IMG/VR virus record: IMGVR_UViG_3300025949_000090
Span: 1-24,791 of that record
Origin: a virus
Reading direction: 5' to 3' (one strand)
Length of the DNA stretch: 24,791 bases
Below are positions 10,842-24,791 of the stretch, in pieces. The notes under the pieces are model-generated. The model searched no databases and was not told where the DNA came from. It saw only the letters and a list, made by a program, of their open reading frames with translations. The translations under genes were made by a program, and so were the position numbers. Numbering within the stretch: position 1 is the first letter of the stretch; each line of letters begins with the position of its first letter.

Positions 10842-11191
10842 GCTATTGCCGTTGGTCGAGTGACGATTTTCAGTGCGACGTTTACGTCTATGAGGATTGC
10901 CGGGGCGGCTTTACGACTCACGTTGCCGGCGTCCGCTACGTTTTCGCCGAACCATTGCCAGCGCCAGTTGGCTACCGCACGGATTGTGACGGCTGGTGGG
11001 CGCGCGATAGGCGCGTTTCCGAAATGGTAAAGGATGCCGAGCGGCAGCATATCGGCCTCCCGCACGACGGCGAAACGTTCAACGATGCCACGGCTGCACT
11101 TTGCGCCGACCGTCTCGAATCGCTGCGCAGCGCAGGCTACAACGTGCCGCAATACGCCATTGACGCGCTGCGCAAGGAAGCCGAAGCATGA
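10838..11191 (+). CDS. Hypothetical protein
   Basis: A 117-residue protein starting MSYCRWSSDDFQCDVYVYED, with a beta-rich N-terminal half (GGFTTHVAGVRYVFAEPLPA) and a helical C-terminal part (ATAALCADRLESLRSAGYNV). This type is common next to NinB/resolvase modules, but I know no function. The ATG at 10838 overlaps the recoded upstream stop. An in-frame upstream ATG at 10787 would overlap the resolvase gene and is rejected. Confidence 0.65.
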   Translation: MSYCRWSSDDFQCDVYVYEDCRGGFTTHVAGVRYVFAEPLPAPVGYRTDCDGWWARDRRVSEMVKDAERQHIGLPHDGETFNDATAALCADRLESLRSAGYNVPQYAIDALRKEAEA

Positions 11192-11460
11192 TCTTCCTGC
11201 AAGACGGCCTGATCGAGTTTTTCATATCGCAGGGGGCGAGCAAGGCGCTTGCCGAGGACTTGGCGACGGAATTGGCCGACAAGCTTGCGCGGGCGATTGA
11301 GCGAGAGCGGCGTGAGCAGGATATCGCCGATTTGTTCGCCCGCACGAAACTTAGTTGTGCCGGCATCGCGCAACGAGTCCGCTGCCACAAATCCACCGTT
11401 AGCCGAGTAATCCGCAAAAGTGTTGCATAGAGTGAAATCTTGCAACGCCGTTCGCGATAA
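11188..11460 (+). CDS. HTH regulator, possibly Mor-like, with a TAG near the C-terminus
   Basis: A small protein with a helical N-terminus (IFLQDGLIEFFISQGASKAL, ATELADKLARAIERER) and a clear helix-turn-helix at the C-terminus: CAGIAQRVRCHKSTVSRVIR. The layout, a dimerisation part then HTH, recalls the Mor/C family of Mu middle/late activators, though the similarity is weak. TAG at 11428-11430 (codon 81) ends an 80-residue form. If read as Gln, ten residues follow (Q,S,E,I,L,Q,R,R,S,R) to a TAA at 11460. Its place between TAG-free and TAG-bearing regions makes it a candidate late-gene regulator. Confidence 0.65.
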
Positions 11461-11469
11461 CCTGAAATT

Positions 11470-11655
11470 ATGGACAAACGTAAAAGTGGAAAGTAGATCG
11501 GGATGCGCGGCGACGTCTTGCCAGACGGAATTTGCCACGATCCTGATTGGATGGGCGGGTACGACGAGGCGCAGGAACTGAATTTCGGTGAGGCGCCGCG
11601 CGGTATTCGACTTGAGCGAGAGAAATTCGAGGCGCTAGTGGTTCACGGCGACTAA
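11470..11655 (+). CDS. Small hypothetical protein, visible with TAG as Gln
   Basis: Sixty-one codons from ATG 11470 to TAA 11655 with one TAG at codon 9 (11494-11496). The protein reads MDKRKSGKQIGMRGDVLPDG, then ICHDPDWMGGYDEAQELNFG and ends FEALVVHGD. An in-frame ATG at codon 12 (11503) would give a 50-residue form without TAG, with GGAAAG/CGGG upstream, so the exact start is open. No family recognised. Confidence 0.5.
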
Positions 11656-11923
11656 CAATTTTTGCGGGTACGGCGTACGGAGTCCCGGCGTAATTGGGAC
11701 GGAATCTGGGCTAGAACTGGCCCGCATCGAACATCGGCGGCAGCAGAACATAACGACCAGCAGGTAGCTCCACTGGTAGGCTCGGGAGACTGGCGCAAAG
11801 CTAGACGTAAGCCTGAAACCCGTTGCTGTAAAGGCTCGCGCGGGCCGTCCCGCCGATACATATACGAAAGTCGGGTATTCGCAACATATCGCTGAAACAG
11901 GTATCGAAAACGGCGAAAGTTGA
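11588..11923 (+). CDS. Possible protein gene containing three TAG codons
   Basis: A frame open except for TAG at 11636, 11765 and 11777 runs to TGA at 11921-11923. Translation after the first TAG includes ESGLELARIEHRRQQNITTS, RQLHWQARETGAKLDVSLKP and GRPADTYTKVGYSQHIAETG, which reads like protein rather than random sequence; the last part recalls ParB-like/HTH regions (GRP...IAETGI). The start is unclear: GTG 11588 or TTG 11612. It overlaps the preceding gene by up to 68 bases. It could instead be a decayed gene or a structured RNA (TGCGGG at 11663 pairs with CCCGCA at 11721). Confidence 0.4.
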
Positions 11924-11965
11924 GCATGCCAGACTTTGAGATTGTCGGATGCAAGCCCGACTGAT

Positions 11966-11990
11966 TCAGGTAACGTCGCGACGGACCTGA
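11966..11990. other. Strong hairpin upstream of the tmRNA
   Basis: TCAGGT (11966-11971) pairs with ACCTGA (11985-11990), and an inner CGTC/GACG stem fits inside. No T-run follows, so it is not a clear intrinsic terminator. It lies just before the tmRNA acceptor piece and may be a 5' processing or leader element. Confidence 0.45.
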
Positions 11991-12175
11991 TGACAAATCA
12001 AGAAAGCGTGTCGCACAAAATTTGAATCGCGCAACGCAAGAGTGCGCAAACCCTCCCCCGGTAGGGCGCGGACAACCGGGATAAATTCAGGGTTGTCGTC
12101 GTTGGCAACTGAATAGCAGGGATGAAGGTGTGGCTAGGCATTTCGGACGGCGGTTCAAGTCCGCCCATCTCCACC

Positions 12176-12296
12176 AAATGCAACTTTGAAACGATGGCAC
12201 CAACCATCTAGTCGCGAGTTGAGAAAGCCGCTGAGGCGCTGGTAACGCCCTGGTTGCGAGTAAGGCCAGAAATGGTCCGGCGATGAAGTTGCATTT
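12176..12296 (+). repeat. Intervening segment of the permuted tmRNA, bounded by 11-base inverted repeats
   Basis: AAATGCAACTT (12176-12186) is the exact reverse complement of AAGTTGCATTT (12286-12296). The repeats extend the acceptor stem of the precursor beyond CCA and G1. This forms a long hairpin that holds the two future ends together before the segment is removed. The interior has no gene. Confidence 0.85.
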
Positions 12297-12382
12297 GATG
12301 GGGATGTCAGGCTTCGACGGGGTGCGGTAGTTGCATTGGACCTGACGAGAGGCGACCGACGTAATCGGCGCAAAACGTAAAT

Positions 12383-12424
12383 GCGAACGATGATTCGTAC
12401 ATGCCGATGGCTCAAGCAGCCTAA
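12383..12424 (+). other. tmRNA tag reading frame: ANDDSYMPMAQAA-stop
   Basis: After an A-rich run (AAAACGTAAAT) the frame GCG AAC GAT GAT opens and ends with TAA at 12422-12424. The start AND is the common tag start in many bacteria; the end AQAA differs from the usual LAA or VAA. The stop is TAA, so the amber-suppressing tRNA of this phage would not extend the tag. The resume codon is inferred by analogy. Confidence 0.8.
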
Positions 12425-12434
12425 GCAAGCTCCC

Positions 12435-12540
12435 GCCGCCGGGGTTTAACCAAGGCGGCACTAATTTGCGGAATGCGGGCGCCAACCCGCGACTTATGCG
12501 TTGTTCCAGAGGCCCTTCGCTTCGGCGAAGCTTGGTTAAA
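12435..12540 (+). other. Structured 3' region of the tmRNA coding piece
   Basis: Several stems follow the tag stop: GCCGCC/GGCGGC (12435-12440/12454-12459), GCGGG/CCCGC (around 12475-12490) and CTTCGC-TTCG-GCGAAG (12515-12530), an extra-stable UUCG hairpin. TTTAACCAAG (12445-12454) is also complementary to CTTGGTTAAA (12531-12540), an alternative longer pairing. These may be tmRNA domains, precursor processing signals or a terminator without a U-tract. Confidence 0.55.
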
Positions 12541-12625
12541 GACCAGAAGCATAGTTCAAGTCTACGTAAGCCAGAGATCAGCACTGGCCCGTAAACAAAT
12601 TCAACCTTTCGCGGAGACGGCGAAG

Positions 12626-12838
12626 ATGGGCAAATACTTTCTGTTGGGCGTTGTTCTGCTTGCGTTGAACTTTGCTGGCGTCGTCAGCATTCCCTGGGTA
12701 TGGGCGTTCGCGCCGTTCTGGATTCCTGCGGCGGCGATCGCTTTCGTATTTGGCGTATTCGTAGTCGCATGCACTGCATTCGCCACACTTGGGCCGATGC
12801 TGGCTGAAAAGATAGCAGAGGTGCGCGAAGCAGAATGA
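12626..12838 (+). CDS. Small membrane protein
   Basis: A 70-residue protein with two predicted membrane segments: YFLLGVVLLALNFAGVVSI and the stretch FWIPAAAIAFVFGVFVVACT, separated by a Trp-rich turn, with a charged C-terminus (EKIAEVREAE). GGAG nine bases before the ATG is a good ribosome site. It is the first gene after the tmRNA; a role in the host inner membrane is likely but unspecified. Confidence 0.65.
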   Translation: MGKYFLLGVVLLALNFAGVVSIPWVWAFAPFWIPAAAIAFVFGVFVVACTAFATLGPMLAEKIAEVREAE

Positions 12839-13218
12839 GCATTTTTGGTCAGGACGACTCTGAGCGCGGCCAGTTTCCCATGTGGGATGGCCTAATTGCG
12901 TACTTCCCCTCAGCTCTTGCCGGCGTCGCCCGCGTGTCGTTGCTTGGCAATGCCAAGCATAACGCAGGCGAACCGCTGCATCATGCTCGCGGCAAGTCCA
13001 CGGACCATCGCAACAAGATCATTCGCCACTTGATCGACGGCGACTACGACGAGGCCGCATGGCGCTGTCTCGCGTTGTCGCAGGAAGAATACGAACGCCG
13101 AGGCGCGCCGATTGCGCCAGGTGCGCGGATCGAGTCGGAAACTGGACTGCCGGTCGGATCTGCCGACGAACTGGCAGATGCGCTGCGGCATCCGCTGAGC
13201 GTGGCGGGCGAGGAATAA
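12835..13218 (+). CDS. DUF5664 / dATP-dGTP diphosphohydrolase-like protein
   Basis: A 127-residue protein with the pattern of the phage family named for N-terminal domains of dATP/dGTP diphosphohydrolases (DUF5664): FPMWDGLIAYFPSALAGVAR, LLGNAKHNAG and the conserved STDHRNKIIRHLIDGDYDE. This family is thought to act in nucleotide pools by hydrolysing dNTPs, but the activity of this member is inferred from family naming only. It starts by ATGA overlap with the membrane-protein gene. Confidence 0.72.
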   Translation: MSIFGQDDSERGQFPMWDGLIAYFPSALAGVARVSLLGNAKHNAGEPLHHARGKSTDHRNKIIRHLIDGDYDEAAWRCLALSQEEYERRGAPIAPGARIESETGLPVGSADELADALRHPLSVAGEE

Positions 13219-13313
13219 TGCTTCTGTTCTGCGCCTTCGTGTTGTGTCTATGCGATGAGCCAGGATGGGCAGCATTCTTCATTGCGATGAACTACCTCTT
13301 CTCGGATGACTGA
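13218..13313 (+). CDS. Very small membrane peptide
   Basis: Thirty-one codons fit exactly between TAATG at 13216-13220 and TGATG at 13311-13315, giving a hydrophobic peptide starting MLLFCAFVLCLCDEPGWAAF. The precise coupling on both sides is the main support. Function unknown. Confidence 0.45.
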   Translation: MLLFCAFVLCLCDEPGWAAFFIAMNYLFSDD

Positions 13314-14137
13314 TGCGCCTAGGCAAACGAATTTTCGTTATCCCAGATACACAAGTGAGGCCGGGCGACCCAACTGACCATTTCGATTGGATTGGTGCCG
13401 CGATCAAGGACTACGAGCCGGATATCGTTGTCCATCTCGGCGATCACTGGGATATGGCAAGTCTCTCAACATGGGACGGCCAACTATCCAAGGAAGGGCG
13501 CCGCTATACGGATGACATTGAGGCGGGGAATGCCGCACTGGACCGCCTACAGAACGCGATGGGCGGCTTCCAGCCGAAGCGCAAGGTTATCCTGCGCGGT
13601 AACCATTGCCACCGCATCACGCGCGCCGTAGAGGCTGACGCGAGACTGAAGGGGGCGTTCTCATTCGATCATTTCAACGATCGTGCGCTCGGATGGGAAC
13701 CAGTAGATTACAACGGCTCTACGCCTGGAATTATCGAAATTGAGGGCATCAAGTTTGCCCACTATTTCGCAAACAGCATGACTAGCCGACCAATCGGCGG
13801 CAATGCCAGCTACAAGCTAACGCAGATTGGTTCACCCTTCGTCATGGGTCACGTTCAGACCTACGACATTGGCACGAAGCAATACGCAACTGGGCGCGTG
13901 ATTCGCGGCATTGTTGCCGGCGCGGCCTACTTGCACGATGAAGAATATCGCGGAAATGCGAATACGCACTGGCGCGGAATCGTTGTTCTGAACGAAGTAA
14001 AATACGGCGACTTTTGCGAAATGCCGCTGACGCTATCGTATCTCTGCCAGAAATATACCGGCACATCGCTTGCACGCTATTTGCAGCGCCGCTATCGCCG
14101 AGCAAAAGAACGATTCAGTCTAGCGAGGGCGGCATGA
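13313..14137 (+). CDS. Calcineurin-like metallophosphoesterase
   Basis: A 274-residue protein with the metallophosphoesterase motifs in order: IFVIPDTQVRPGD (DxH-type, here DxQ), VVHLGDHWD (GD), VILRGNHCHR (GNH) and FVMGHVQTYD (GH). The residues bind two metals and cleave phosphoesters; phage members may act on nucleic acid ends or nucleotides. The substitution of Gln for His in the first motif is also seen in other phage versions. The C-terminus is basic (RRYRRAKERF). It starts by TGATG overlap. Confidence 0.85.
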   Translation: MRLGKRIFVIPDTQVRPGDPTDHFDWIGAAIKDYEPDIVVHLGDHWDMASLSTWDGQLSKEGRRYTDDIEAGNAALDRLQNAMGGFQPKRKVILRGNHCHRITRAVEADARLKGAFSFDHFNDRALGWEPVDYNGSTPGIIEIEGIKFAHYFANSMTSRPIGGNASYKLTQIGSPFVMGHVQTYDIGTKQYATGRVIRGIVAGAAYLHDEEYRGNANTHWRGIVVLNEVKYGDFCEMPLTLSYLCQKYTGTSLARYLQRRYRRAKERFSLARAA

Positions 14138-14561: not shown

Positions 14562-14774
14562 ATGCAGTAGATTTCTGACCATCCGATGGCCGCCGATGCG
14601 GTGAAGATCGTCCCATTTGCGGGCGTCTCCGCTGCAAATTTCTTCGGCATGAGTGTGCCGGATGCGATCAACTACGTGACCCTGTTTTGCGGTATCTGCT
14701 ACGCGCTGTCTTGGTGCTGGCGAGGCTATGTTTTCGCTCGCGACAAGAAGTACCTGCCTGAGCACGAAGATTAA
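14562..14774 (+). CDS. Holin-like small membrane protein with TAG at codon 3
   Basis: A 70-residue protein, M-Q-TAG-ISDHPMAADAVKIVP, with a hydrophobic central part (AINYVTLFCGICYALSWCWR) preceded by a weaker one (PFAGVSAANFFGM) and a charged tail (KKYLPEHED). Its location right before the SAR endolysin and its size fit a holin or pinholin. TAG 14568-14570 is the third codon; without suppression the product would be a dipeptide. A downstream ATG at 14586 could give a 62-residue form without TAG but lacks a clear ribosome site, while the ATG at 14562 has AGGAG. Confidence 0.72.
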
Positions 14775-14778
14775 GCGC

Positions 14779-15270
14779 GTGTCAATCAACACGCGAATCG
14801 CAACCCTATTTGCCGGCGCCGCGCTTGCCATTGCGGGCACGATGGCGACGCAACACGAGGGTACGCGCTACTAGGCGTATCAGGATGTAGGCGGCGTGTG
14901 GACTATCTGCGAGGGTGACACGCATGGCGTCAAAGAGGGCGACAAAGCAACACGCCAAGAGTGCGACGATCGGCTTCGCGCGAACCTTGTAGCCGCCAAT
15001 AGTGCTTTCGAGCGTTGCGTGGTTGAACCCGTCAGCGTCTATGAGCGAGCTTCGTACGTGGACTTCATCTTCAACGCAGGCCAAGGGAATTTCTGCCGCT
15101 CGACGCTCGTCAAGAAACTGAACCTCGGCGACCATAAGGGCGCCTGTGACGAGCTGCTGAAATGGGTATACGTGGACGGTAAGGACTGCCGCATCGCAGC
15201 CAGCAATTGCTACGGCATTGTGAAGCGCCGGCAAGCTGAGCATGACCTTTGCCTACAAGGCTTGCGATGA
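14779..15270 (+). CDS. SAR endolysin, lysozyme of the GH24 family
   Basis: A 163-residue lysozyme resembling phage P21 R21. A weakly hydrophobic Gly/Ala-rich N-terminus (IATLFAGAALAIAGTMAT) is the signal-anchor-release segment. The T4-type catalytic triad follows with the right spacing: Glu27 in QHEGTRY, Asp36 in AYQDVGGVW and Thr42 in VWTICEGDTHG. The in-frame TAG is codon 32 (14872-14874), between Glu27 and Asp36. Without readthrough the catalytic domain is lost. C-terminal parts YVDFIFNAGQGNFCRSTLV and KGACDELLKWVY are typical. It cleaves peptidoglycan after release from the membrane. The start is GTG at 14779; later ATGs would remove the SAR segment. Confidence 0.9.
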
Positions 15271-18314: not shown

Positions 18315-18318
18315 AACA

Positions 18319-18405
18319 GGAAGGTTCCGCTGGGTTGGCCGGCGAGCGGTCTTGAAAACCGTGGCTACCGAAAGGTAGGGAGTTCGACTCTTCAACCTTC
18401 CGCCA
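18319..18405 (+). tRNA. tRNA-Ser (anticodon TGA)
   Basis: Acceptor GGAAGGT pairs fully with ACCTTCC; G73 and CCA follow. The anticodon loop CTTGAAA gives TGA (reads UCA). A long variable arm (CTACC/GGTAG) marks a class II serine tRNA. T-loop TTCGACT. Confidence 0.9.
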
Positions 18406-18411
18406 AAACTC

Positions 18412-18483
18412 GGGGTGCGCGTTGGGACGCAGAACTGCCCTGCAAGCAGATCGGTAAGGGTTCGATTCCCTTGTGCTCCACCA
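18412..18483 (+). tRNA. tRNA-Ala-like (anticodon TGC), irregular
   Basis: Acceptor GGGGTGC pairs with GTGCTCC, with G3:U70, the alanine identity pair, then A73 and CCA. T-arm AAGGG-TTCGATT-CCCTT is perfect. The anticodon stem CTGC/GCAG encloses CCTGCAA, giving TGC (Ala), but position 33 is C instead of the near-universal U. The D-arm is short (GCG-TTGGGA-CGC). A Cys reading (GCA) would keep U33 but destroys the stem. Confidence 0.65.
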
Positions 18484-18541
18484 GAAATGCTCGGCGCGAA
18501 AAGCGCTCCCTGTGACCGGGGATGGATACGCCCGTGAGGAA

Positions 18542-19251: not shown

Positions 19252-19328
19252 CGGCGCGTAGCATAACGGTTTAATGCCGTGATCTCTAAAGTCACTCGAT
19301 CTCCGTTCGAATCGGAGCGCGCCCGCCA
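19252..19328 (+). tRNA. Suppressor tRNA, anticodon CTA, reads UAG (probably as Gln)
   Basis: Full cloverleaf: acceptor bases 2-7 GGCGCG pair with CGCGCC, while position 1 and 72 are both C and unpaired. T8-A9, D-arm GCAT-AACGGTTTA-ATGC. The anticodon stem GTGAT/GTCAC encloses CTCTAAA, anticodon CTA. T-arm CTCCG-TTCGAAT-CGGAG is perfect, and G73 and CCA are encoded. G2:C71, G3:C70, G10:C25, G73 and a weak or open 1-72 pair are the elements glutaminyl-tRNA synthetase reads in E. coli tRNA-Gln, so charging with Gln is likely. It explains the in-frame TAG codons in the late genes. Confidence 0.93.
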
Positions 19329-21109: not shown

Positions 21110-21535
21110 ATGTCTCGTAAAAGCACAGAATCTCTAAGCGTTGCCACGGTTTCGGCACTGCCTTCAAGGCTTGAGCCGCCCGAATCTCTGACAACTAAAT
21201 AGATCGAGCTATGGCGCGCGACGGTCGCGACTAAGCCGGTGGATTGGTTTGCCGCAGATAGCGCGCCATTACTGATGGAATACGTGCGGGCTGTTGCTAT
21301 GTGCGATGCACTTGCAGTCAAGATTGATTTGGCATGCACTGGTAAAGCGGTAGAGGAAGGCATGATGCTAAAAAACCTTCTCGATATGCGCGATAAGGAA
21401 TCAAAGCGCGTCGCGAGCCTGGCCACGAAGCTGCGGCTGACGAATCAGAGCCGGTACACGCCGCAGGCAGCGGCCACGGCAAACAAGCGCTCGGCGCAGG
21501 GTGGTAAGTTGTGGCAGTTCGGAAACGGTAGCTAA
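21110..21535 (+). CDS. terS: Terminase small subunit, one TAG codon
   Basis: A 141-residue protein of the P27-type small terminase group. The N-terminal part LPSRLEPPESLTTK precedes TAG codon 31 (21200-21202) and IELWRATVATKPVDWFAADS, the family pattern with LW and the DWF segment. Then follow APLLMEYVRAVAMCDALAV and a C-terminal helical/basic part. TerS binds the packaging site and regulates TerL. Without readthrough only 30 residues are made. It overlaps the TerL start (GTG 21511) by 25 bases. Confidence 0.85.
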
Positions 21536-23028
21536 CACGCGCGCAGCGAAACATTGCGTGGATCGAAACGTTTTGCCGTATTCCCGAGGGAAAGGATGTT
21601 GGCAAGCCGGTCAAGCTGAGGGATTGGCAGTAGCGCGAATTGATTCGGCTCTACGATTCTCCGACGCGGACATTCATTCTTTCGTTTGGCCGCAAGAATG
21701 GTAAGACCGCCCTGATTGCCTTCATCGTGCTCTTGCATACTTGCGGACCGGAAGCAGTAGGGAATTCGGAAGTGGTATCTGGCGCCCGCTCGCGCGACCA
21801 GGCGTCGATGGTCTTCCGATATGCGAGCAAATGCGCCCGCCTATCGCCCGATATTTCGCAAGCGGTTGTGATTAAAGATACAGCCAAGGAAATCGTCTGT
21901 CCTGAACTTGGAACGACGTATAAGGCGCTGAGTGCTGATGCGGCAACGAATGTGGGCCGCTCGCCAGCTCTGGCGATCCACGACGAATTAGGCTAGGTCC
22001 GCGGCCCTCGCGATGATTTCTTCGAGGCGATTGATACTGCGCAGGGCGCGCATGAACATCCGCTATCAATCATCATCTCGACTCAAGCCGCAAAGGATGG
22101 CGATCTGCTCTCAGTAATGATCGATGATGCACTGAAAGGCGCGGACCCGATGATTAAGGTGGCGCTCTATACTGCTCCACAAGACCTTGATCCGTTCAGC
22201 GATAAGGCGATCAGGGCGGCAAACCCGGCGTTCGGCGATTTTCTGAACGCAGACGAATGCAGGCGGCTGGCGGAAAGCGCGAGGCGCATGCCTTCGAGAG
22301 AGTCGGCGTATCGAAATCTCATCCTAAACCAAAGGGTGAATATGAGCGATCCGTTTGTGACGCGCTCGGTTTGGGAAGCGAATAGCGCTGAGCCGGATTT
22401 CAGCGTTGTACAGGAATGCTATATCGGCGTTGACCTATCTGCGCGCAATGACTTGACGGCAGTGGTCGTGGTGGGGCGCGATGGTGCTGGATTATTCCAT
22501 GTGTTGCCCTATTTCTTCGCCCCCAAGGTCGGCGTCGAGGAACGCAGCCAGCGTGATCGAGAGCCTTATGATGTTTGGGCGCGAGAGGGAAAGATCACGC
22601 TGACTCCTGGTGCATCGGTTGACTATGCCTATGTTGCCTAGCAGCTAATTGAATTATGCGATTCATTCGATGTGCGTGCGATACCGTTTGACCGCTGGCG
22701 CATGGATGTACTGAAAAACGAGCTGTCACGGCTCAGCGCCGAATTGCCGCTTGTGCCGTTCGGTCAGGGATTTAAGGATATGACGCCCGCGCTGGATCAG
22801 CTTGAATCGCTGCTGCTGGACGGCAAGATCAGGCATGGCGGCAATCCGGTGCTCGATATGTGCGCGGAGAATGCCGTAGCAACTCGCGATCCTGCCGGCA
22901 ATCGCAAGCTGGACAAATCTAAAGCAACAGGCCGAATTGACGGACTTGTTGCGCTCGCAATGGCTATCGGCGCGGCGAACACACAAGCGCCGGCCAAGCC
23001 TCCCGAATACCAAATGATGATTCTGTGA
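21511..23028 (+). CDS. terL: Terminase large subunit, four TAG codons
   Basis: A 505-residue protein from GTG 21511 (GGTGG upstream). TAG codons are 7, 41, 162 and 377. The ATPase part has LRDW-Q-(TAG)-RELIRLYDS, Walker A FGRKNGKTAL (Gly60-Thr66) and Walker B LAIHDELG (Asp158, Glu159) directly followed by TAG 162 and VRGPRDDFFEAID, then LSIIISTQAAKDGD as motif III. The nuclease domain has YIGVDLSARNDLTAVVVV and GRIDGLVALAMAIG with metal-binding Asp residues. Length and motif order are normal for HK97/P27-type TerL. It cuts and pumps DNA into proheads. A standard code splits this gene into several fragments. Confidence 0.95.
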
Positions 23029-23039
23029 AGGAATAAACG

Positions 23040-23654
23040 ATGTCAGACAACAAACGCGCCTATTCGGTTTTTTAGGTCAAATCGATCGATGCCGCGAAGC
23101 GCACGTTTACGGGCTTGGCGACTACGCCAGCCGTTGACCGGGTTGGCGATACGATCGACCCGCTCGGTGCGACGTTCCAGAATCCCGTGGTTCTCCTGCA
23201 TCAGCACGAGCACGATGAGCCGATCGGCTAGGCCGTCTTCGGCAAGGCGACAAAAAATGGACTCCCGTTCACCGCGACAATACCGCAGTCCGATGGATTG
23301 CCTGATTGTGAACTGAAAGACCGGCTGGATACGGCGTGGGGCGAAATCGAGTTGGGTATCGTGCGCGCCGTGAGCATCGGCTTCCGTCCGCTTAAATATG
23401 CCTTCAATGACAACGGCGGCATCGAATACCAAGAGATTGAAGTGTATGAGCTTAGCCCCGTTTCGGTGCCGTGCAATCAAGAAGCGATCATTACTTCTGT
23501 CAAATCGATGGATAAAGCACTATCCCGCGATGTTGTGGACAAGCTAAAGGAATTCGATAGCGCTCCAGCGAAAATCCAGAAACGCATCAAGCATGCAATT
23601 CCACTTGTAACGGCAGCACGAATCCCGAAGGGCGCAGTTTCGCTCAAGAAATAA
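23040..23654 (+). CDS. Prohead protease (HK97 family), two TAG codons
   Basis: A 204-residue serine protease of the U35/HK97 type. AAGGA lies before the ATG at 23040. TAG codon 12 (23073-23075) lies in YSVF-Q-VKSIDAAKRTFTG. TAG codon 64 (23229-23231) lies in HDEPIG-Q-AVFGKA, where Lys, Arg or Gln is usual. The conserved His is in LLHQHEHD (about 54-58), the nucleophile Ser112 in VRAVSIGFRP, and LSPVSVPCNQEA is the family end of the catalytic domain. The C-terminal part is a basic tail. It matures the capsid by removing scaffold or delta domain. It precedes the capsid gene directly. Confidence 0.93.
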
Positions 23655-23725
23655 TTCACATGCGGGCATCGCTCCCCTTTGTTGCGGGGGCCACGGGGCC
23701 GCAAATCAACCAAAGGAAATTCAAC
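23655..23725. promoter_or_regulatory. Gap before the capsid gene
   Basis: Seventy-one bases with a GC-rich stretch able to form a hairpin (CCCC...GGGGG, about 23677-23693). AAAGGAAATTCAAC before the ATG at 23726 gives the capsid gene a strong ribosome site. No promoter consensus is clear. Confidence 0.4.
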
Positions 23726-24791
23726 ATGGCAGGTAAGACTTTCGCTGAACAGGTTGCCGATCTCAAGGCCACCCGTGACAGCAAGACCAATGAAATGAAC
23801 GCCTTCGCTTAGAAGTCGTTGGATGAGAATCGTTCGATGGATGAGGCCGAGGCCGAAGCTTTCGATACTCTCGAAAATGAAATCAAGCGCATTGACGGCG
23901 ATATCGCTCGCCTGACGCGTCTTGAAAAGATTAATGCCGAGAAGGCCGTTGTCGTTGCCGGAGCCAAGTCGGAAGATGCGAGCAAGACCCGCGAGGGTGT
24001 GACGGTCAAGAATACGCAGAAGCTTGAGCCGGGTGTTGAATTCGCCCGCTATGCGATGTGTCTGGCCGCCGCGAAGGGTGACGTGGGCCGCGCGTTCAAT
24101 ATCGCGAAGAGCCAGATCCCGCAGACCGATCGCGTTGTCAACGCACTGAAGTTCCAGGCCGAGACGGGCTAGAGCTTTGAATCGCTCATCAAGTCCAACG
24201 TCAATGCCGGCACTACCTCGGATGCGACGTGGGCTTCGCCACTGGTCAACTATCAGATTTTCACGGCTGATTTCGTCGAATATCTGCGTCCGCAAACCAT
24301 CGTTGGCAAGTTCGGTCAGGGTGCGATTCCATCGCTGCGTAATATCCCGTTCAATGTCCGAATTGCTGGTCAGACTTCGGGCGGCGCGGGCTACTGGGTT
24401 GGTCAGGGCGCGCCGAAACCGCTCACCAAATTTGATTACAACGCGACGAATCTGACCTGGGCCAAGGTGGCCGCGATCTCGGTCATCACGGATGAACTGA
24501 TCCGCTTCAGCAATCCGTCTGCCGAGGCGCTTGTACGCAATGGCTTGGTGGATGCACTGCGCGAACGTCTGGATATCGACTTCATCGATCCGGGTAAGGC
24601 CGCGGTTGCGAATGTTTCTCCGGCGTCGATCACCAATGGTGTTGCGGCAATCAGCTCCAGCGGTTCGGATGAAGCGCATGTCCGCGCTGACCTTCGCGCT
24701 CTCTGGGCGCCGTTCATTGCGGCGAACATCGCCCCGACTACTGCGGTCTACATCATGTCTTCGACTACGGCCCTTGCCCTGTCGCTCATGG
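23726..24791 (+). CDS. Major capsid protein (HK97 fold), cut by the window end, two TAG codons so far
   Basis: The first 355 codons of an HK97-type major capsid protein. The N-terminal ~110 residues form the helical delta domain (AEQVADLKATRDSKTNEMNA, DTLENEIKRIDGDIARLT), a coiled coil removed by the protease. The shell part contains TTSDATWASPLVNYQIFTAD, GQGAIPSLRNIPFNVRI, GGAGYWVGQGAPKPLTKFDY and VAAISVITDELIRFSNPSAE. TAG codon 29 (23810-23812, NAFA-Q-KSLDE) and codon 149 (24170-24172, AETG-Q-SFESL) interrupt a standard-code reading. The 3' end is outside the window. Confidence 0.93.

Follow-up and report, generated by a model that had tools for sequence, protein, structure and literature searches.

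A complete, circularly permuted tmRNA gene in an amber-recoded temperate phage from soil

Two-piece tmRNAs are encoded by 53 of the 402 tmRNA-bearing phages found among 18,146 genomes (PMC9004378), and the tmRNA database holds 79 unique bacteriophage sequences (PMC11915505). The gene described here comes from a soil phage genome fragment and was found in a window of 24,791 nucleotides, which is the whole of a 24.8-kb viral record (IMGVR_UViG_3300025949_000090). As in this window, a complete permuted tmRNA is present in the genome of Methylophilales phage Melnitz (PMC9004378). However, the Melnitz tmRNA is of the alphaproteobacterial type and stands under a glutamine riboswitch, whereas the best subtype for the window gene is beta_tmRNA, albeit below the cut-off of that model. 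Permuted, phage-encoded tmRNAs are also found in Menderavirus (Stenotrophomonas phage Yut2 and its kin), where they are annotated as ssrA, lie in a tRNA cluster and score above the beta_tmRNA cut-off. Their tag, VAANDDSYTVRIAA according to ARAGORN, is unlike that of the window gene, and no BLAST match between the two was obtained in a search of the phage collection. The closest cultured relative is Stenotrophomonas phage vB_SmaS-DLP_6 (KU682439.2), in which a permuted tmRNA is located at positions 1382-1725 (RF04321, 136.8 bits), although the GenBank record contains no tmRNA feature. The DLP_6 gene adjoins phage tRNA genes and shares with the window gene the permutation, the acceptor stem, P2, the T arm and the pseudoknot topology. 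The two differ in the tag (ANDDSFAPMAIAA in DLP_6, ANDDSYMPMAQAA in the window) and in the intervening segment (31 versus 123 nt); the coding pieces are 76.5% identical over 131 bp, the acceptor piece has diverged outside the tRNA domain and DLP_6 is a much larger phage (168 kb). Betaproteobacterial two-piece tmRNAs (RF01850) correspond to the closest of the older subtype models, the cut-off of which is not reached by the window gene. Their tags have 10 residues and are ANDERFALAA-like, versus 13 residues in the window.

The window contains a complete and intact circularly permuted tmRNA gene at positions 12084-12463 of the plus strand (Table 1). The Rfam model tmRNA_permuted (RF04321), which has a cut-off of 47, gives it 112.5 bits (window E-value 1.5e-21), and ARAGORN agrees, calling a permuted tmRNA at 12084-12515 with the tag ANDDSYMPMAQAA and a TAA stop. 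The phage-encoded permuted tmRNA proposed in the preliminary description is thus borne out, as are the CCA and the first G of the 5' half at the positions given there: the CCA precedes G12300, with the intervening segment between them. The location holds as well, but the range of 12000-12540 probably extends too far at its 3' side. The 3' end is most likely near 12463 rather than at 12540, because a block shared with an independent contig (G001, see below) stops there and the ARAGORN end at 12515 is nominal. The same block begins at 12082-12084, which bears on the 5' end of the acceptor piece. The score for RF04321 is well above its cut-off, whereas the scores for the three older subtype models, the use of which the preliminary description had suggested, all remain below theirs: 68 bits versus 84 for beta_tmRNA (RF01850), the best of the three, 40 versus 70 for the cyanobacterial subtype (RF01851) and 30.4 versus 50 for the alphaproteobacterial one (RF01849).

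Table 1. Coordinates of the permuted tmRNA gene, its parts and two other features of the window.
Feature	Position	Strand	Remarks
Acceptor piece (3' part of the molecule, encoded first)	12084-12176	+	ARAGORN, RF04321 alignment; 5' end approximate
P2, 3' strand (GCATTTCG)	12138-12145	+	8/8 pairs with 12318-12325
T arm (GGCGG TTCAAGT CCGCC)	12149-12165	+	5/5 pairs, two compensatory relative to DLP_6
Acceptor stem, 3' strand CATCTCC with U70, discriminator A and CCA	12166-12176	+	
Intervening segment	12177-12299	+	123 nt, predicted to be removed
Coding piece (acceptor 5' strand, D-loop, P2 5' strand, tag, pseudoknot)	12300-12463	+	3' end approximate
Tag reading frame (resume codon GCG, ANDDSYMPMAQAA, stop TAA)	12383-12424	+	ARAGORN; RF04321 alignment ends at the TAA
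H-type pseudoknot 3' of the tag (S1 AAGCTCC/GGGGTTT, S2 GCCGCC/GGCGGC)	12427-12459	+	
tRNA with CTA anticodon (amber suppressor)	19252-19328	+	ARAGORN
Terminase large subunit	21511-23028	+	PHROG 9, E 5.6e-118; four in-frame TAG in the listed frame

The tRNA-Ala-like domain is complete, with G3:U70, T arm and CCA all present. The acceptor stem closes perfectly across the permutation, as had been claimed, GGGGATG at 12300-12306 pairing with the 3' strand at 12166-12172 in seven of seven positions. The two pieces are further joined by P2, an 8-bp helix between CGGGGTGC (12318-12325) and GCATTTCG; this helix, too, had been correctly recognized, and it carries a compensatory change relative to DLP_6, pair 6 being U-A in one phage and A-U in the other. 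In the T stem, pairs 2 and 3 have G-C and C-G swapped between the two phages, again in a compensatory manner. These changes, together with a pseudoknot of conserved topology but not conserved letters, point to selection on structure. When the two pieces were cofolded without constraints, the acceptor stem, the T stem and P2 formed along with two further intermolecular helices, although in cofold energy by itself the pair surpasses shuffled sequences only weakly (z -1.85, 6/200). It is the covariance model and the compensatory changes, not the cofold energy, that carry the identification.

The tag frame is open, with a standard alanine resume codon, an Ala-Ala end and a stop. The tag ends in AQAA, where ALAA is usual; among the matches listed, AQAA was found in one of 105 viral tags and TAA served as the tag stop in 90 of 105. 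A pseudoknot stem had been noticed initially; 3' of the tag there is an H-type pseudoknot, in which S1 pairs 12427-12433 with 12441-12447 and S2 pairs 12435-12440 with 12454-12459. None of 300 shuffled sequences gave as good a pseudoknot. The topology is shared with the DLP_6 pseudoknot, the letters being different.

A perfect 10-bp stem (12177-12186 with 12286-12295) closes the intervening segment and extends the acceptor stem; the fold of the segment is better than those of shuffled sequences (z -2.84). It is longer than in most viral relatives (median 75 nt in 107, 14 of which have a segment as long or longer). A structured segment of this kind is what a precursor for tRNA-processing enzymes should look like, and it would be cut out by them. 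No recognizable sigma-70 promoter was found in 11000-13400. Riboswitch control as in Melnitz was considered and rejected, since the surroundings of the gene matched no other Rfam family at E-values of up to 1. A structured RNA upstream, in 11600-12000, was likewise rejected, the fold being no better than that of shuffled sequences (z 0.07).

The surrounding genes are those of a phage and include DnaB, a DnaD-like loader, a helicase, a methyltransferase, NinB, an endolysin, terminase, a head protease and the major head protein. The terminase large subunit identifies a tailed phage, and the lineage is a real temperate, HK97-like, amber-recoded one. In-frame TAG codons are present in the genes for the endolysin, both terminase subunits (TerS and TerL), the protease and the head protein, versus none in 22 early-side genes. 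In TerL, each of the six relatives that lack TAG in the TAG column of highest conservation has glutamine there, and the tape-measure frame of G001 contains 19 TAG codons. The TAG-bearing late genes lie in 14728-15270 and 21110-24790.

The tmRNA gene sits in a non-coding stretch between a gene ending at 11430 and small genes on the other side. This stretch (11431-12626) is a 1.2-kb island of short blocks which vary between close relatives, the tmRNA being one such block; no Rfam family matched the other blocks of the island. In G001, an independent 56-kb contig, the tmRNA is identical over about 12082-12463 and lies in the same phage context, which refutes the assembly chimerism raised in the preliminary description. 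The flanks of the G001 gene differ on both sides, with another neighbouring sequence at the 5' side and about 107 extra bases immediately after the gene. In G002, the terminase region of which shows 97% identity, some of the adjoining non-coding sequence is kept and no tmRNA is found there. The gene therefore behaves as an optional block within a variable non-coding island, and, since a close relative lacks it at the same place, it is dispensable for this type of phage.

Capture of the gene from a host, suggested in the preliminary description, found no support as a recent event. The 17-base core around the resume codon has 11 matches in 84,980 species genomes, none of which was called a tmRNA, and BLAST matches in 369 Gammaproteobacteria genomes are limited to the T-arm region, the best of them lying in one-piece genes. 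As far as sequenced hosts go, these searches thus give no sign of recent capture. The rarity ascribed to phage permuted tmRNAs does not hold either, given the published count of 53 among 402. A pattern scan of IMG/VR yielded at least 105 permuted tmRNA genes among 120 contigs listed, and in a control set of 49 contigs, picked solely by a tRNA-Gln(TTG) pattern and a minimum length of 15 kb, 18 carry a permuted tmRNA above the cut-off. Permuted tmRNAs are therefore ordinary in tRNA-bearing environmental phages. In the contigs sampled their share is about a quarter to a third, which suggests that they are routine in such phages and is well above the reported 2.3% of sequenced phage genomes with any tmRNA. 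The window gene is a fresh example of an already known thing, and adds a clear, intact case of ribosome rescue carried by a phage.

The gene probably encodes a functional permuted tmRNA, a helper in the tRNA and translation set of the phage that serves ordinary trans-translation with a phage-specific tag. If it is expressed, one precursor would be transcribed, from which tRNA-processing enzymes of the host would excise the intervening segment, and the two resulting RNAs would stay joined through the acceptor stem and P2. G3:U70 would direct charging by the host alanyl-tRNA synthetase. No SmpB gene was found in 27 viral records (the window, its relatives and 22 other tmRNA-bearing viral contigs), from which we infer use of host SmpB. 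Together with EF-Tu, host SmpB would deliver the tmRNA to ribosomes stuck on mRNAs that are broken or lack a stop codon; ANDDSYMPMAQAA would then be added, the ribosome freed at UAA and the tagged product degraded by host proteases. During infection, the phage may benefit in that its tmRNA would top up or replace the rescue capacity of the host. The failure to find a sigma-70 promoter, the absence of the gene from its place in G002 and the unusual AQAA end of the tag weigh against this explanation. The takeover tool envisaged in the preliminary description is not supported.

It is unlikely that the RNA is instead a decoy or modulator competing with host tmRNA for SmpB, with phage-specific tagging or inhibition as the outcome. 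An inhibiting form of phage tmRNA is known, since phage DS6A encodes a tag-less tmRNA which inhibits the resident tmRNA in Escherichia coli (PMC11915505), and the window tag is unlike common tags. However, the tag frame, the resume signal and the pseudoknot are all intact in the window, and a pure inhibitor would need none of them.

The tmRNA could also support amber recoding by clearing ribosomes that the suppressor tRNA has driven past UAG stops of the host and on to the ends of the mRNAs, where they become nonstop complexes. The restriction of in-frame TAG to late genes among those tested and the tRNA with the CTA anticodon fit this explanation, and there is precedent for tmRNA activity where UAG does not function as a stop (PMC6207430). 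The tag of the window gene itself ends in UAA, a stop that stays functional in an amber-suppressing cell, although TAA is the common tag end anyway, as the viral tags above attest. In addition, the unrelated code-15 phage PhAss-1 (OQ749652.1) has an unannotated one-piece tmRNA at 2107-2545 (RF00023, 77.9 bits). The description of PhAss-1 makes no mention of a tmRNA in its main text. A general link between tmRNA and amber recoding looked promising from PhAss-1 and from 49 contigs with a suppressor tRNA, 12 of which carry a tmRNA (11 permuted, one one-piece), but was undone by the size-matched tRNA-Gln controls, where the number is 18 of 49 (all permuted, none one-piece; Fisher p 0.27), the suppressor set having been selected by tRNA and including some contigs without visible recoding. 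Moreover, no suppressor tRNA lies near any of the 105 permuted-tmRNA loci among the matches listed, and the relatives G002, G383 and G384 have a suppressor tRNA and no tmRNA in the sequence examined. We therefore regard support of amber recoding as quite improbable. Slightly more doubtful still is the narrower proposal that in this particular lineage the tmRNA takes an active part in the code switch, rescuing ribosomes driven past UAG by the suppressor tRNA of the phage; if true, recoding and ribosome rescue would act as a pair. In any case, the presence of amber recoding and a tmRNA in one temperate lineage offers a natural system in which to study the interplay of suppression and rescue.

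There is very little room for the view that a host ssrA, acquired at an integration site, persists here as a passive remnant. Genes for tmRNA are frequent integration sites and G001 encodes a tyrosine integrase. Yet about 20 kb separate this integrase from the tmRNA, which is thus not an attachment-site leftover, and the gene is complete. No close host tmRNA was found either in the 17-mer scan of the 84,980 genomes or by BLAST in the 369 Gammaproteobacteria, and the compensatory changes relative to DLP_6 show upkeep. As regards the identity of the host, both ends of the G001 contig look phage-like, with no host gene recognized on them. Finally, chance pairing or an assembly chimera, in favour of which nothing was found, can be practically dismissed, as the E-value of the RF04321 match rules out the former and the occurrence of the gene in an independent contig speaks against the latter.

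Two further observations concern tRNAs. Within the tRNA array of the window, positions 18316-18485 contain two tRNA-like stretches not called by ARAGORN, which by eye are Ser-TGA-like and Ala-TGC-like, the latter with G3:U70. Elsewhere, two viral contigs (L293 and L332) carry both a suppressor tRNA with the CTA anticodon and a permuted tmRNA, the tag of which is VAANDNDLMDMRLAA.
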